Of a stretch of 64,000 nt of DNA, positions 55,999 to 62,863 are shown piece after piece. Source of the stretch: Haloarcula salinisoli (GTDB lineage Archaea > Halobacteriota > Halobacteria > Halobacteriales > Haloarculaceae); the NCBI RefSeq assembly GCF_019599405.1, contig NZ_RKLQ01000001.1, positions 1,054,001 to 1,118,000 of the forward strand, written 5' to 3'. A program made the position numbers and the translations under genes. Below the pieces are notes generated by a model. The model saw only the letters and a list, made by a program, of their open reading frames with translations, made no database searches and was not told the origin of the DNA. Each line of letters opens with the position of its first letter. Positions within the stretch are counted from its first letter, which is position 1.

Positions 55999-57825
55999 TC
56001 AGTAGCTGCGCTCTTTTGGCTCGTAGTCCTCTTCGTCGCCCTCGAGGTTGACCGGTTTGTAGTACAGCTCCGGCGTGCCGTCATTCCAGGCCAGCATCGT
56101 GTGTTTGATCCACTCGTCGTCCTTGCGCTCCTGGTGTTCCGCGCGCCAGTGCGCACCGCGGAACTCCTCGCGGGCGAGCGCGCCGAGCGTGATGGCCTCG
56201 GCCACGTCCAGAATGTTGCGCGTTTCGATGGTGTGGATGAGGTCGGTGTTGTAGGTGCGCGAGGGGTCCGACACTGCGACGTTCTCGTACTCTTTGCGAG
56301 CCTCGCGGAGGTCTCGCAGCGCGTCGTTCAGGCTCTCCTCCTCCCGGAAGACGTTGACGTTCTGGGTCATCGTCTCCTGGACGTCCGCGCGGACGTTCGC
56401 GTGGTTGATACCGTCTTCTTCGAGCAGGGTCTCGACGCGTTCGCGCTCGTTCTCGACGGCGTTCTCGATGACGGCGGTCGGTTCGACCGCGGCGCCGTCC
56501 GCGACGACGTCTTCGCTGCTGGCGTCGATGGCACCCGGTTCGACCGGCGGTTCGACGGCGCCGTCCTCGCTCTTTGCGGAGGGACCGGTGCCGATCTCGG
56601 CGGTCTTCATGTCCTTGCCGGCGGCGTGCCAGCCAGCGCGAGCGCCGAAGACGAGCAACTCGGGCAGTGCGTTGCCGCCCAGCCGGTTCGCGCCGTGGAG
56701 CGAGACACAGGCGGTCTCGCCGGCGGCGTAGAGGCCGGAGATACAGGTCTCGCCGTTCTCGTCGCACTCGACACCGCCCATGGCGTAGTGCTGGCCGGGC
56801 TTTACCGGCATCGGCTCGTCCAGCCCGTCGACACCCTCGAAGTCCTCCGCGAGGTGGAGGATGTTCTCCAGACGGTCGAGGATACGGTCCTCGCCGAGGT
56901 GGCGCATGTCGAGGTCGACGTACTCCTCCTCGATACCGCGGCCCTCGTTGATTTCTGTCAGCTCCGCCCGCGAGACCACGTCGCGGGAGGCGAGTTCGCC
57001 GTCGTTGTTCGCGTAGCCGTACTCGAACATGAACCGCTCTTCATCGCCGTTGTAGAGGATACCGCCCTCGCCGCGGACACCCTCGGAGATGAGCACGCCA
57101 GTCGAGGGGAGCGTGGTCGGGTGGAACTGTATCATCTCCATGTCCTCCATCGGCGCACCCGCGCGGTAGGCCATCGCACAGCCGTCGCCGGTGTTGGCGA
57201 CGGCGTTGGTGGTGTGGTCGAAGGCCTGCCCGAGCCCGCCGGTGGCGAGGATGACGCCGTTGTTCGCGCGGAAGCCGTGAAGCTCGCCGGACTTGATGTC
57301 GTAGGCGACACAGCCGTGGCACTCGCGGTCCTCGGGGTCCTCGTGGTCGGTCACGGCGAGGTTTGTGACGTACCACTCGTCGTACACTTCGATGCCGCGC
57401 TTGACCGCCTGCTCGTACATCGTGTGCAGCAGGTGGTGGCCCGTCTCGGCCCCGGCGTAGGTGGTTCGCGGGAACGACATCCCGCCGAAGGGGCGCTGGG
57501 AGACCCGGCCGTCGTCCTCCCGGGAGAAGGGCATTCCCCAGTGTTCTATCTGTATGACTTCCTCGGGTGCGGATTTGGCGAAGGTGTCGACTGCCGGCGC
57601 GTCGGCCAGGTAGTCCGACCCCTTCATCGTGTCGTAGGCGTGGAGGTCCCAGGAGTCGCCATCCCGGAGCGCGGCGTTGATACCGCCCTCGGCCGCGCCC
57701 GTGTGACTGCGGACCGGATGCAGTTTGGTCACGAGGGCCACGTCGGCGCCCTCCTCGTCCGCTGCGATGGCCGCTCGGAGGCCGGCGCCGCCCGCGCCGA
57801 CCACGATAACGTCGTGTTCGTACAT
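55999..57825 (-). CDS. sdhA: Succinate dehydrogenase flavoprotein subunit
   Basis: This 608-residue FAD subunit oxidises succinate to fumarate in the TCA cycle. The FAD-binding start is VIVVGAGGAGLRAAIAADEEG (residues 7-27). HTGAAEGGINAAL near 41 carries the His that binds FAD covalently. HPTTLPSTGVLISEGVRGEGG near 235 holds substrate contacts, and RLGGNALPELLVFGARAG near 380 completes the FAD site. A Glu-rich insert (about 405-445) is typical of halophiles. It is the last gene of sdhCDBA, 33 bases after sdhB. Confidence 0.95.
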   Translation of the reverse strand: MYEHDVIVVGAGGAGLRAAIAADEEGADVALVTKLHPVRSHTGAAEGGINAALRDGDSWDLHAYDTMKGSDYLADAPAVDTFAKSAPEEVIQIEHWGMPFSREDDGRVSQRPFGGMSFPRTTYAGAETGHHLLHTMYEQAVKRGIEVYDEWYVTNLAVTDHEDPEDRECHGCVAYDIKSGELHGFRANNGVILATGGLGQAFDHTTNAVANTGDGCAMAYRAGAPMEDMEMIQFHPTTLPSTGVLISEGVRGEGGILYNGDEERFMFEYGYANNDGELASRDVVSRAELTEINEGRGIEEEYVDLDMRHLGEDRILDRLENILHLAEDFEGVDGLDEPMPVKPGQHYAMGGVECDENGETCISGLYAAGETACVSLHGANRLGGNALPELLVFGARAGWHAAGKDMKTAEIGTGPSAKSEDGAVEPPVEPGAIDASSEDVVADGAAVEPTAVIENAVENERERVETLLEEDGINHANVRADVQETMTQNVNVFREEESLNDALRDLREARKEYENVAVSDPSRTYNTDLIHTIETRNILDVAEAITLGALAREEFRGAHWRAEHQERKDDEWIKHTMLAWNDGTPELYYKPVNLEGDEEDYEPKERSY

Positions 57826-57858
57826 TGTATGGTAAAGGTTGTCTGGCGGTCCTTAGGA

Positions 57859-58743
57859 CTACCAGAACTTGAGGTTGTTCTTGACTGCTTCGCGTTTCAG
57901 CTCCTGGATGTGCTCGGTCAGCGGGATGTCCTTGGGACACACCTCGGTACAGGAGAACTGGGTCTGGCACCGCCAGACGCCGTGTTCCTGTTCGATGATA
58001 CGCAGGCGTTCCTGTTTGCGGTCCTCGCCTTCGCGTTCGTCCATCGCGAACCGGTAGGCCTTGTTGATGGCCGCGGGACCGAGATATTCGTTGTCGCCGG
58101 CGGCGATGTTACAGGAAGACATACAGGCGCCACACCAGATACACCGCGTGGACATCTTCACCTTCTCGCGGTTCTCCCGGCTCTGGCGCTGTTCTTCGAG
58201 CTCGTCTTCGGGCGTCTCGTCGGCGTCGAAGTACGGCTCGACGGCGTGCATCTGGTCGTAGAAGTGCTCCATGTCCACGACGAGGTCCTTGACGACCTCC
58301 TGGTGGGGGAGCGGTTCGATGCGAACCGGCGATTCCAGATCCGCGAGCTGTGTCTTGCAACCCAGCATCTGACTCCCGTTCACGAACAGGGCGTCCGACC
58401 CACACACTGCCTGTCTGCAGGAATGTCGGAAGGTAAGAGAAGAGTCGTACTCGTCCCGGGCGTAGATGAGCGCGTCGAGGACGGTCATCCCCTTGTGGAA
58501 CGGGACGCGGAAGTCGTCGAAGCGCGGTTCCTGCTTGCCCTCGACCTCCGGGTCGTAGCGGAACACTTTGAGGAGCACTGTCTCTTCGTCGTCCAGCGTC
58601 GCTTCCTCTGTCTCACGCTGGGCCTGTCGCTCTGCCTCCCGTTCGCGCTTCTCCGCTCGGCGCCGCTCTCCTGGCGACTCGACGTCCGGTTCCTGCTCTT
58701 CCTGTTCGGTCTCCGTCTCCTGTTGTTCTATCTGTGTACTCAT
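57859..58743 (-). CDS. sdhB: Succinate dehydrogenase iron-sulfur subunit
   Basis: This 294-residue electron-transfer subunit has the [2Fe-2S] cysteines in CRQAVCGSDALFVNGSQMLGC (about 109-129). Two further cluster motifs are CIWCGACMSSCN and CQTQFSCTEVCPKDI. The first 50 residues are a charged Glu/Arg extension (EKREREAERQAQRETEE) likely to be helical and common in haloarchaeal versions. The ATG at 58743 overlaps the sdhD stop (TAATG), so a much longer in-frame extension is rejected. Confidence 0.94.
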   Translation of the reverse strand: MSTQIEQQETETEQEEQEPDVESPGERRRAEKREREAERQAQRETEEATLDDEETVLLKVFRYDPEVEGKQEPRFDDFRVPFHKGMTVLDALIYARDEYDSSLTFRHSCRQAVCGSDALFVNGSQMLGCKTQLADLESPVRIEPLPHQEVVKDLVVDMEHFYDQMHAVEPYFDADETPEDELEEQRQSRENREKVKMSTRCIWCGACMSSCNIAAGDNEYLGPAAINKAYRFAMDEREGEDRKQERLRIIEQEHGVWRCQTQFSCTEVCPKDIPLTEHIQELKREAVKNNLKFW

Positions 58744-59108
58744 TATAGGAACCCGTTCATTGCGAGTGCGACTCTCGTCCCCTGTGCGACCAGCAGCAGA
58801 CTGGCGACGACCAGCACCCACTTGACGGCGGTCTTCTGGGTGCCGTCGATACCCTGGTTGACCAGCGCGTTGTAGACGCCGTTGACGCCGTGGAACGTCG
58901 CCGTCACGAGGAACAGCCACATCGTCGCGAAGTAGCCGACCTGACTCATCCGTGCCTGTGTGCCGGCGAAGGTGATGTCGGCGGCGTGGTTCGCGAAGTG
59001 TAGCAGGAGGAAGTGGAACGCCAGCACACCGATGAGGAACACCGCTGTCAGCCGCTGAAGCAGCCAGCGGCGACCGCCTCGCTCGAAGGAGGAGTAGTGT
59101 TCCGCCAT
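58743..59108 (-). CDS. sdhD: Succinate dehydrogenase membrane subunit D
   Basis: This 121-residue protein has three transmembrane helices: LLQRLTAVFLIGVLAFHFLLLHF (about 16-38), MSQVGYFATMWLFLVTATFHGVNGVYNAL and WVLVVASLLLVAQGTRVALAM. His residues in the first and second helices (FHFLLLHF, TFHGVNG) could bind heme or quinone. The ATG overlaps the sdhC stop and its own stop overlaps the sdhB ATG, both as TAATG, so the operon is co-translated. Confidence 0.9.
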   Translation of the reverse strand: MAEHYSSFERGGRRWLLQRLTAVFLIGVLAFHFLLLHFANHAADITFAGTQARMSQVGYFATMWLFLVTATFHGVNGVYNALVNQGIDGTQKTAVKWVLVVASLLLVAQGTRVALAMNGFL

Positions 59109-59503
59109 TATGCCAGCGGCCCCCCGAGGAAGGTCGGAATGCTCGCGACGGTGATGGCGCCCGTCAGCACCATCGACGCGTAGAAGCTCTTGTCCTGTGC
59201 CTCCAGTCCGACGCCCAGATCGACCATCAGCAGACGGACGCCGTTCAGGATATGGAAGACAGCGACGGCCAGCAGTCCGACTTCGAGGAATCGAACGACC
59301 AGCAAGGCTTCGAGCCCCTGGAGCGTGCTCGTATACAGCTCGGCGCCACCCAGAGAGGTACTCAGGACGGCGATGTGGGTGAACAGGTAGCCCACGAGCA
59401 CCCAGCCGGTGAACTTGTGGAAAATCCAGGCCCACATCCCGGCCGAGAACTCCCGCCACCGCCCGAAGTCCTCGACGGTGCCACGATTGTAAGACTGACT
59501 CAT
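59108..59503 (-). CDS. sdhC: Succinate dehydrogenase cytochrome b subunit C
   Basis: This 131-residue first gene of the operon has the family start [27 protein letters not shown] (about 23-49), in which the two His are heme/quinone ligand candidates. Helices at about 69-91 ([26 protein letters not shown]) and 105-126 follow. With SdhD it anchors the dehydrogenase in the membrane and passes electrons to menaquinone. Confidence 0.9.
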
Positions 59504-59628: not shown

Positions 59629-60675
59629 TCACCGCGCTGGGGGGTGTTCAGGGTTGGCACTGAACACCGGTTCTTCGCGGCTCCGTTCGAGCGCGCGAAG
59701 GGTGCGCTCGTCCAGGTGGACGAGGTGACAGAGCGGGTTCCCCGGATACACCAGCGGGTTCTCCAGGACTCCGACCAGCAATCCGGTGAAGGGTGCTCTG
59801 ACGGTGGTGCTGTCGGTCTTGAACGGGTTCGCGATGGTACAGATAATCTCGTCCTCGTAGACCAGCCCGCCCCGCTCGTGGTGCATATCGACGAGGCCGC
59901 CCGCGTCGGCCCGAATCCAGGTCTTCTCGTCGTGGTTTTCGATGACGGTGCGCCAGCCGGGCCAGCGCACGACCTCGGTGTCGAGCATTCCGAACTCCGC
60001 CAGGACAGACCGGACGCTGTCGAGCGCGCTGTCGATAAGCGGCCGCTGGAATCGGTGGGCCTCTCCCATCTCTATCGTGATGGTGGGCGTGTCCATCCGG
60101 CTGGCCTCCCGCCGGAGCGAGCCCGAGGGTCCCTCCGAGGAGATGATGACGTTCGACGCGAAAGCCTTCGCGACCCGGGCAACGGGCCCGTCGTCCATAT
60201 CGGCCCGGACGTGGAGCGTGTTGGTCCGCCCGCGCGTGGAGGTGTGGAAATCCAGTCCGAAGTCACAGGGGGCGACGAAGTTCCGGAACACGCGGTGGGC
60301 CATCCGCTTGGCGCTCGTCGATTCCGGGTCCCCCGGAAACGAGCGGTTGAGGTCGCGGTCGTAGATGGGGAGATACCGCTCCTGTGCCAGAAAGGCCGGC
60401 ACGTTCAGGACGGGGAGACAGACGAGCGTCCCCGCCAGCTCGCCCAGATCCCACTCGTGGGCGACCTCCCGGACGACTTCGATGCCGTTGAGTTCGTCGC
60501 CGTGGGCCGCCGCCGAGAGGAAGCCAGTCGGCCCCGGGCGTTCTCCGTTGATAATCGTCACAGGCATCCGCACGGGGTCTCCGAGATACGTCTCGCTGAC
60601 GGTGTACCGGACGTTCTGTGTCTCGCCCGGGTCCACCCGCCCCCCGTCGTACGTGAACGGTTCGGCCTCGTCCAT
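59629..60675 (-). CDS. Succinylglutamate desuccinylase/aspartoacylase-family zinc hydrolase
   Basis: This 348-residue AstE/AspA-like carboxypeptidase-fold enzyme would hydrolyse an N-acyl or isopeptide bond. Zinc ligands are seen in AAAHGDELNGIEVV (His and Glu, about 61-69) and LDFHTSTRG (His near 146); ITIEMGEAHRFQ holds the catalytic Glu near 207. A C-terminal beta domain (VYEDEIICTIANPFKTDSTTVRAPFTGLLVG) is typical. The ATG at 60675 gives MDEAEPFTYDGG. It is divergent from the RimK fusion gene with an 86-base shared promoter gap, suggesting opposite actions on one substrate. Confidence 0.85.
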   Translation of the reverse strand: MDEAEPFTYDGGRVDPGETQNVRYTVSETYLGDPVRMPVTIINGERPGPTGFLSAAAHGDELNGIEVVREVAHEWDLGELAGTLVCLPVLNVPAFLAQERYLPIYDRDLNRSFPGDPESTSAKRMAHRVFRNFVAPCDFGLDFHTSTRGRTNTLHVRADMDDGPVARVAKAFASNVIISSEGPSGSLRREASRMDTPTITIEMGEAHRFQRPLIDSALDSVRSVLAEFGMLDTEVVRWPGWRTVIENHDEKTWIRADAGGLVDMHHERGGLVYEDEIICTIANPFKTDSTTVRAPFTGLLVGVLENPLVYPGNPLCHLVHLDERTLRALERSREEPVFSANPEHPPAR

Positions 60676-60761
60676 GCAGCTACAACTGTGACACGGCCTA
60701 TATAAACCTCCGGACAGCGGACCCGCCAGACCTTTGCTGGCACCCTCGGAACTAGTGGCCA

Positions 60762-62111
60762 ATGAGTGACGACATCACGGTCGGCGTGTTGAGCCTCCAC
60801 TCCAGCAAGGAGACCAAGGCGATTCTCAATGCCGCCGACGAGATGGGCTACGACACCGCGTGGCTCCGCGAGGAGAACACGACTGTGCGAGCCCGTGCGG
60901 GGAGTATGACCCTGGAACCTGATGTGGACGTCATCGCCAACCGACTCCTCCTCTCGAACGACGAGCATCCCATGGAGGGTGTCGGGCTGGCGCTGACGCT
61001 CTCGAATCTCACCCCGATGCTGAACGAGCCGATGGCGGCGACGACGGCGCTGCACAAGTTCGCCAGTGCCGCGGCGCTGGCCGAGGCCGGGGTCCCGATA
61101 CCCGACGCCGTCCTCGCGCTCTCGAACGAACGGCTCAACGAAGAGCGCGCCCGCTTTGGCGACCGCGCGGTGTACAAGACGGCTATCGGTACCCACGGCG
61201 GCGGTACCTGGATGGTCGAACTCGACGACCCGGTCAACGCACAGGTCGGAGACCGCCACGCCTTCCTGCAGGAGTATCTGGACCACGACGAGCAGCGCCA
61301 CCACGATCTCCGGGTGTACGTCGTCGGCGACCGCATCGTGGCCGCGATGAACCGCTACGCGCCGGAGGGCGAGTGGCGAACCAACGTCGCGCTTGGCGGC
61401 GAAGTCGAGGACATGACCGGACGGCTGCCAACCGAGGTCGGCCAAATGGCGCTCGAGGCCGTCGACGCCATCGGCCTCGACTACGCCGGCGTCGACATCG
61501 TCCAGGGCGAGGACGGCTACTACGTCCTGGAAGTCAACCCGACGGCGGGCTTTCGCGGCCTCTTCGAGGCCAGTGGCGTCTGCCCCGCGCCCTACATCGC
61601 CCAGCGCGCTATCCAGCGAGCAGGTGGGAGTGTCCCCGACAGCGAGGTTGAGCGCCTCGCCGACCGGCTCGACGACTCCCGGCCCGCCGCGATGCCCGCG
61701 AAACCGAAACAGAAGCGCGCAGAGAACGTCGTGGTCGGCTACATCGAGGAGGTCGTCGTCTCCGGCACCAGGGGCAACAAGACCGTACTCGCCAAGTCCG
61801 ACACCGGCGCGACCCGGACGAGTATCGACGCCGAACTCGCCGCAGAAATCGGGACCGGCCCCATCCTCGACATCGTGAAGATAAAGTCGGGCAGCCTCAA
61901 GTCGGGCCGCTCCCGGCCGGTCGTCGACCTCGTCGTCGGCCTGGGCGGCACCCAGCACACCGTCACAGCGAGCGTCGAGGACAGAGCGCACATGGACTAC
62001 CAGGTGTTGCTGGGCCGGGACATCCTCAAGCACTACCAGGTCGACGTCAACCATCGGGCCGACGCCGAGCGCGAGGTCGACACCGAGGAAGAGGAAGACT
62101 CCGAAGAGTAG
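60762..62111 (+). CDS. RimK-type ATP-grasp ligase fused to a retropepsin-like domain
   Basis: This 449-residue protein has an N-terminal RimK/LysX ATP-grasp part (about 1-290, IGTHGGGTWMVE, FLQEYL, DLRVYVVGDRIVAAMNR, GVDIVQGEDGYYVLEVNPTAGF with metal-binding Glu-Val-Asn). It is followed by a basic linker (KPKQKRAENVV). A C-terminal RimB-like aspartic protease domain (about 325-430) has the DTGA active-site motif at Asp347 and LLGRDIL near 420. ATP-grasp enzymes of this group add amino acids, often Glu, to proteins or small molecules. The protease domain and the divergent desuccinylase gene suggest reversible modification. The substrate is unknown. Confidence 0.87.
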   Translation: MSDDITVGVLSLHSSKETKAILNAADEMGYDTAWLREENTTVRARAGSMTLEPDVDVIANRLLLSNDEHPMEGVGLALTLSNLTPMLNEPMAATTALHKFASAAALAEAGVPIPDAVLALSNERLNEERARFGDRAVYKTAIGTHGGGTWMVELDDPVNAQVGDRHAFLQEYLDHDEQRHHDLRVYVVGDRIVAAMNRYAPEGEWRTNVALGGEVEDMTGRLPTEVGQMALEAVDAIGLDYAGVDIVQGEDGYYVLEVNPTAGFRGLFEASGVCPAPYIAQRAIQRAGGSVPDSEVERLADRLDDSRPAAMPAKPKQKRAENVVVGYIEEVVVSGTRGNKTVLAKSDTGATRTSIDAELAAEIGTGPILDIVKIKSGSLKSGRSRPVVDLVVGLGGTQHTVTASVEDRAHMDYQVLLGRDILKHYQVDVNHRADAEREVDTEEEEDSEE

Positions 62112-62251: not shown

Positions 62252-62863
62252 TCAGTCGGTCTGTACTTCCGCCACACTCTCTGCGATATCCTCCTCCGCC
62301 CGCCAGAGGTATAGCGTCGCGTAACTCCGGTAGGGTGCCCAGCGCTTTGCGTACTCGACCATCTCCGACCGGCTATACCCCTCGCCCACGACGTTCGTGA
62401 ATCCCTTTCGAACCCCGAGGTCGCCGACGGGGAACACGTCCTCGCGACCCAGCGAGAACAGGAGTTGCATATTGGCGGTCCACTCACCGACGCCGGTGAT
62501 TGCCGTGAGTTCGTCCCGGACGGCGTCGTCGGCCAGCCCGTCGAAGTACTCGACCGAGTAGCCCTGTTCCTCGAATGCCGCTGCCACCTCGTTCACGTAG
62601 CGCGTCTTCTGGCGCGAGAGGCCGGCCTCCTCGAGGAGCGTGTCGTCTGCTGCCAGAACGCCGGCTGGCGTCATCTCGACGGCCTCGAACAGCCGGTCGC
62701 GGGTAGCCGCGGCCGACGCCATCGACACCTGCTGGCGACAGATAGAGACGACCAGTCGCCGAAAGAGGTCCTCTGCGGGGTCGAGCGTCAGTTCGCCGTG
62801 GGCGTCGACGAGCGGGCCGATGTCTGGGTCCTCACGCAGGAATTCGTGGGGCGAATCCGTCAT
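62252..62863 (-). CDS. DNA-3-methyladenine glycosylase II (AlkA-like, HhH-GPD)
   Basis: This 203-residue base-excision glycosylase has a helix-hairpin-helix in LTAITGVGEWTANMQLLFSLG (about 116-136) followed by the catalytic Asp in FPVGDLGVRKGF near 147. The N-terminal part includes FRRLVVSICRQQVSMASAAATRDRL. No C-terminal iron-sulfur cysteines are present, which separates it from Nth/MutY. It removes alkylated bases. It is a single gene. Confidence 0.9.
   Translation of the reverse strand: MTDSPHEFLREDPDIGPLVDAHGELTLDPAEDLFRRLVVSICRQQVSMASAAATRDRLFEAVEMTPAGVLAADDTLLEEAGLSRQKTRYVNEVAAAFEEQGYSVEYFDGLADDAVRDELTAITGVGEWTANMQLLFSLGREDVFPVGDLGVRKGFTNVVGEGYSRSEMVEYAKRWAPYRSYATLYLWRAEEDIAESVAEVQTD

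Follow-up and report, generated by a model that had tools for sequence, protein, structure and literature searches.

Polyglutamylation of S6 in Pseudomonas is carried out by RimK-RimB (RimABK), which combines an ATP-grasp ligase with a RimB-type retropepsin carrying a DTG motif (PMC11957791, PMC4741518). The substrate of RimK is RpsF, to whose C-terminus it attaches Glu; in Pseudomonas, the encoded RpsF chain already ends in Glu, and RimB cleaves tails once they reach 5-6 contiguous Glu (PMC11957791). RimK also makes free poly-alpha-glutamate in vitro, a reaction stimulated by RimB, and C-terminal polyglutamylation is described as limited, to date, to bacterial S6 (PMC11957791). A ligase and a retropepsin are joined in one polypeptide in the RimBK hybrid DP2392 of Desulfotalea psychrophila, for which protease activity has been demonstrated (PMC11957791). 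RloABC of Pseudomonas aeruginosa likewise associates a RimB-family retropepsin with an ATP-grasp protein, with separate genes, secreted proteases and an inactive transglutaminase membrane partner (PMC12239564). ATP-grasp enzymes of the same family, ArgX and LysX, use the C-terminal Glu of ArgW or LysW as the attachment point for an amino acid (PMC10433800). These enzymes use a separate EDWGE carrier, recognized through a GSWGR motif, and belong to biosynthetic operons without a protease. In the open-licence literature, the only published ligase-retropepsin fusion found was the reverse-order RimBK, and no papers on a haloarchaeal fusion or an AstE-like third member were found.

The locus described here lies in a 64,000-nucleotide stretch of the Haloarcula salinisoli genome (contig NZ_RKLQ01000001.1), referred to as the window. 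It consists of two divergent genes with the following features:

60762..62111 (+): fusion gene, 449 aa, encoding a RimK-family ATP-grasp ligase, a linker, a RimB-type retropepsin and a Glu-rich tail
60762..61631 (+): ATP-grasp ligase domain, residues 1-290 (PF08443 at 1e-27, AF2 model, Foldseek, residue mapping)
61734..62051 (+): retropepsin-like aspartic protease domain, residues 325-430 (PF05618, profile matches)
61800..61811 (+): DTGA catalytic motif, residues 347-350 (Asp-Thr-Gly in 50/50 aligned orthologs)
62052..62108 (+): Glu-ending C-terminal tail, ...EVDTEEEEDSEE; sequence and length differ among homologs
59629..60675 (-): AstE/AspA-family (M14-type) hydrolase, 348 aa from its ATG (PF24827 at 2e-46)
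60676..60761: divergent promoter gap of 86 bp between the two ATGs

As a sequence-only reading of this DNA had proposed, ligase and protease form one chain within a single open reading frame, DTGA begins at residue 347, and the hydrolase diverges from the fusion across the 86-base gap between the start codons. The minus-strand sequence TTTATATA, ~27 bp upstream of the hydrolase ATG, would be compatible with a leaderless haloarchaeal promoter for the hydrolase. Many genera, though not all, have sdhCDBA (window 55999-59503, on the hydrolase strand) on one side of the pair and an HhH-GPD glycosylase gene (window 62252-62863) on the other. Since the pair is found without sdhCDBA in several genera and on plasmids, these genes are excluded from the system. 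Comparison of the loci revealed no conserved biosynthetic neighbors beyond the pair and no kinase, reductase or aminotransferase genes travelling with it; no RimA was seen in the neighborhood of the fusion.

The ligase domain belongs to the RimK family in a broad sense. PF08443 (RimK ATP-grasp) covers residues 98-272 above its gathering score, and the fusion scores just above the cut-off of the broader RimK subfamily TIGR00768 (146.2 versus 143.4 bits). Against the RimK equivalog NF007764, it reaches 74.6 bits, far under the cut-off of 331, compared with 471.9 bits for a methanogen RimK. It also remains under the cut-off of the LysX_arch equivalog (110.4 versus 275.6 bits) and scores 120 bits against the MptN model. 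An ATP-grasp tree with few rows places the fusion outside the canonical RimK clade and nearest to LysX (modest support, 80/89), which makes the Glu specificity of the ligase less certain. The RimK-type ligase of the sequence-only reading therefore stands at the level of the ATP-grasp family (PF08443, TIGR00768), but a canonical RimK identity is excluded by the equivalog score and the tree.

Residue mapping indicates that the predicted Mg/ATP residues D245, E257 and N259 are kept in the fusion, and that the LysX carrier-binding motif GSWGR is replaced by IGTHGGG. In RimK, the poly-Glu chain is held by S7, R64, S68, R189 and N262 (PMC10092738). Most of these glutamate-chain contacts are shared by the fusion, and two of them, S7 and S68, are missing from LysX and MptN; R8 and S14 of RimK are replaced. 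In the AF2 model, pLDDT is mostly >80 over the ligase part, with weak loops. The best Foldseek match of this model is LysX/ArgX bound to LysW-gamma-AAA, and the first matches also include RimK, the peptide ligase PsnB and RimK with RpsF, with the RimK matches at 1e-17.

PF05618 matches the retropepsin domain over residues 367-432 (5e-10; 39.9 bits against a gathering cut-off of 27) and is matched by 33/33 fusion members. The sequence LLGRD lies at residues 416-420, and profile matches of the domain include 9g59, 9g58 and 2pma. The score against the RimB equivalog NF052261 (15.3 bits, cut-off 200) excludes a canonical RimB identity. Curated RloA models outscore the RimB model on this domain, and the stretch from the DTG strand to the following conserved strand is ~25 residues shorter in the fusion than in RimB. 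Two AF2 predictions from a shallow alignment gave pLDDT <50 here, and the retropepsin fold is for this reason a prediction from sequence.

The partner hydrolase matches PF24827 (AstE_AspA_cat) and keeps the motifs HGDE, DRDLNRSFPG, DFHT and GEAHRF. Among equivalog models, DoeB gives it the highest score (94.5 bits versus a cut-off of 402.7), and it scores 20.5 bits against the AstE equivalog (cut-off 305.65). The AstE-like deacylase of the sequence-only reading is thus an AstE/AspA family member, but by the curated cut-offs it is neither AstE proper nor DoeB proper. Enzymes of the AstE/AspA type free an amino acid with its alpha-carboxylate retained, which is compatible with removal of a terminal Glu; substrates of the AstE/AspA/DoeB family are small N-acyl amino acids. 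A second AstE-like family (L246) is also common in haloarchaea and has SDGDE in place of the AHGDE of the pair's hydrolase, an apparent alteration of the presumed zinc-binding His.

The pair is widespread in haloarchaea. Among 194 genomes of the class (ortholog thresholds of E <1e-100 for the fusion and E <1e-140 for the hydrolase), both genes were found in 176, neither in 15, the hydrolase only in 3 and the fusion only in 0. Lack of conserved pairing in other haloarchaea would have counted against the initial proposal, and these counts show the opposite. The fused architecture recurs in ~90% of the 194 genomes at 47-82% identity, and the DTG and the ligase residues are kept in the aligned orthologs, which argues against a chance fusion. 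In the aligned haloarchaeal forms, the domain order is ligase then protease, and a phylum search found PF05618 in ~450-aa frames only in haloarchaea. In a named collection of 80 loci, the closest is Haloarcula rara (95%), and the hydrolase lies on the opposite strand within the flank in 70; of the other 10 loci, 3 are 5.0-5.5 kb pieces that end before the full flank. Fetched chromosomal loci with both genes (n=41) are divergent in 40 cases, with nothing between the genes in 29. The arrangement is real and widespread, a new form within a known class of systems.

The co-distribution (176/0/3/15) gives a Fisher p of 9e-20, a value that overstates independence because adjoining genes can vanish in one event. 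Better evidence of coupling is persistence of both genes when unlinked (G029, G064, G075, G136 and G175) and the occurrence of divergent pairs in unrelated contexts on plasmids of Halolamina and Halorarius. Further plasmid-borne fusions have no hydrolase beside them, and in two of the 176 genomes, G131 and G124, the counted fusion is a paralog of 47-49% identity located elsewhere. Fusion fragments adjoin an intact hydrolase in two of the hydrolase-only genomes (G110 and G184), which indicates recent loss of the fusion. In G114, the 3' part of the hydrolase alone remains, adjoining sdhC. These three genomes thus hold remnants of a recently lost fusion or hydrolase at the ancestral locus (L091, L093 and L261). 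In one haloarchaeal family (f3), a GNAT acetyltransferase gene, whose product has a zinc-ribbon-like C-terminal part, and a flippase-like membrane protein gene lie between the pair (L046, L056, L062 and others). Confined to that family, they were set aside as parts of the system.

The same three protein families are encoded together elsewhere. In Methanosarcinaceae, RimB-like, canonical RimK and AstE-like proteins are encoded by separate tandem genes (L115-L121), and the RimK scores 525 bits against that of P. aeruginosa. RimB-RimK-AstE triplets also occur on Salinivibrio and Acaryochloris plasmids, so the proposed bacterial adjacency of RimK, RimB and desuccinylase-like genes exists and extends to Methanosarcinaceae. 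In a tree with long branches, the pair's hydrolase groups with the triplet hydrolases, apart from other haloarchaeal AstE-like proteins (90/73), and both share the motifs HGDE, RYLP, GSLR and GEA.RF. Unlike the haloarchaeal pair, the triplets consist of three tandem genes, with a canonical RimK (472 bits) and no Glu-ending tail on the ligase. Judged by domain content and order, the haloarchaeal fusion represents a version of this neighborhood in which ligase and protease are joined and their order is swapped (K-B). The order is likewise opposite to that of the RimBK hybrid, where RimB is N-terminal. RimBK-like fusions on Thioclava and Aureibacter plasmids have no AstE-like neighbor, and their C-termini, unlike that of the haloarchaeal fusion, do not end in Glu. 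The fusion differs from RimABK as a single chain with its own Glu-ending tail and an AstE-like partner, below the RimK and RimB equivalog cut-offs; it differs from RloABC in lacking that system's separate genes, secreted proteases and membrane partner.

The S6 acceptor of RimK was searched for with PF01250. No bS6 (RpsF) was found in any of the 9 archaeal genomes searched, and the family was present in 10 of 14 control genomes, all bacterial. The canonical RimK of methanogens, with its RimB-like and AstE-like genes (L115-L121), also occurs in archaea without detected bS6.

The C-terminal tail of the fusion is a feature that the sequence-only reading had not included. It starts after the last strand of the retropepsin (VDV), and the chain mostly ends 16-40 residues after the GRD motif, with one outlier at 241. 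Of the 153 distinct fusion-type proteins, all but three (150) have a terminal E and 124 a terminal EE; two of the exceptions end in EEEEEEEL and one in ETQEQ. After clustering at 80%, E occupies position -1 in 50/51 (98%), -2 in 39/51 (76%) and -3 in 8/51 (16%). In a background of 677 other genes from the fetched loci, E is the last residue in 12% and EE the last two in 1%, and at least five E within the last 12 residues are found in 60% of fusions versus ~0.1% of the background. These counts exclude a general trait of acidic haloarchaeal proteins. A trait of all RimK-like enzymes is excluded as well: canonical RimK, archaeal and bacterial, has RTRGKG or a similar C-terminus, and terminal Glu is not conserved in a RimK-like family of methanogens (L230). 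One methanogen RimK-like ATP-grasp protein (L230/L278) does carry a run of ten Glu near its C-terminus (FPEEEEEEEEEELKRKKKSL); the run is missing in sister-species orthologs and looks like a recent codon-repeat expansion.

Paralogs at ~45-50% identity keep the terminal Glu, including those with short tails such as ...LDISQTVEE. Two paralogs, each with one apparently inactive half, retain the Glu end. In L133 (3749-5203, -), NPAH replaces DTGA, and in L134 (4167-5546, -), ~36 residues of the ATP-grasp core are missing. Such Glu ends on a protein with a broken ligase or a lost DTG fit recent decay as well as a role other than substrate. Since the tails vary, the last Glu is nearly constant and canonical RimK lacks it, the pattern is specific to the fusion and to its extreme terminus. 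On these alignments and counts, neither general acidity nor a fixed structural position explains it, and the conserved Glu-ending tail is a candidate modification target.

The fused architecture, the intact active-site motifs, the pairing, the kinship with the triplets, the terminal Glu and the lack of detectable bS6 in the tested genomes are observations. From them we infer a possible substrate, self-modification, an order of steps and a physiological role. Tentatively, and at somewhat less than an even chance, the pair may form a haloarchaeal Rim-type system for C-terminal tail modification, with ligation to Glu tails, trimming by the retropepsin and removal by the AstE-like enzyme. At the expense of ATP, the ATP-grasp domain would attach an amino acid, most likely Glu, to the final Glu residue of a tail ending in Glu. 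The fusion's own tail would be the first acceptor to consider, modified either in cis or by another subunit of an oligomer. The retropepsin domain, probably dimeric, would cut extended Glu tails back, and the AstE-like metallohydrolase would take off single C-terminal or side-linked residues and recycle the amino acid. A C-terminal Glu is the acceptor for both RimK and ArgX/LysX, bS6 was not found in the 9 archaeal genomes and the fusion itself ends in Glu, which makes its own tail the simplest candidate acceptor. The fuller version, in which an enzyme carrying its own substrate extends and trims its Glu tail and is reset by the AstE-like hydrolase, perhaps as a sensor of glutamate or energy or as a timer, is somewhat doubtful. 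Fusion tails often have only 2-4 contiguous Glu versus the 5-6 needed by bacterial RimB, so that trimming would require prior extension, which counts against the tail-modification reading as a whole.

Short tails are what would be expected of an uncleaved mimic, and the ligase-deleted paralog retains its terminal E. Both suit a system that modifies another protein in trans, as RimK does (PMC11957791), with the Glu tail serving as a recognition tag or as a pseudo-substrate that holds the enzyme off by occupying the site of the ligase or of the protease. We regard this reading as doubtful: bS6 was not found in the 9 archaeal genomes, no other candidate target was found, and a pseudo-substrate need not sit at the extreme terminus. 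It is unlikely that the fusion makes a small molecule or a free poly-amino acid (e.g., poly-alpha-Glu or an N-acyl or peptidyl amino acid), which the AstE-like enzyme would hydrolyze, with the tail as a primer or incidental. The AstE/AspA/DoeB family does handle small N-acyl amino acids, and the ATP-grasp family includes cofactor ligases such as MptN, but biosynthetic neighbors are not conserved beyond the pair and the terminal Glu would be left unexplained. The RimB-stimulated synthesis of free poly-alpha-glutamate by RimK in vitro is a precedent for such a product (PMC11957791).

The placement of the ligase with LysX (80/89) and its best Foldseek match are also compatible with a tail that acts as an ArgW/LysW-like carrier, on which an amino acid would be parked on the terminal Glu side chain while it is metabolically converted, until released by the AstE-like enzyme, as by LysK/ArgE in the synthesis of lysine and arginine. 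The haloarchaeal arginine pathway uses such a carrier (PMC10433800), and ArgW encoded in the Haloarcula salinisoli genome ends in LEEDWGE and adjoins ArgX. With IGTHGGG in place of GSWGR, a retropepsin superfluous to a carrier, and no kinase, reductase or aminotransferase genes travelling with the pair, this role is quite improbable. Least probable of all is ordinary conserved synteny without functional coupling, with the acidic tail a haloadaptation only. Adjacency does let one deletion remove both genes, as the hydrolase 3' end beside sdhC in G114 illustrates, but pairs move as a unit to plasmids and new contexts, both genes are retained in the five genomes where they are unlinked, the same partners are in tandem in other phyla, and EE ends are rare among haloarchaeal background proteins.

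Returning to the Rim-type system of tail modification, a near-universal haloarchaeal Rim-like system without a found S6 implies either another archaeal protein target or self-modification, and the Glu-ending tail offers a concrete place to look for the modification. Haloferax volcanii has a PF05618 match and thus provides a tractable genetic model for tests. If true, the own-tail cycle would be, to our knowledge, without precedent in Archaea as a self-contained cycle of C-terminal tagging.
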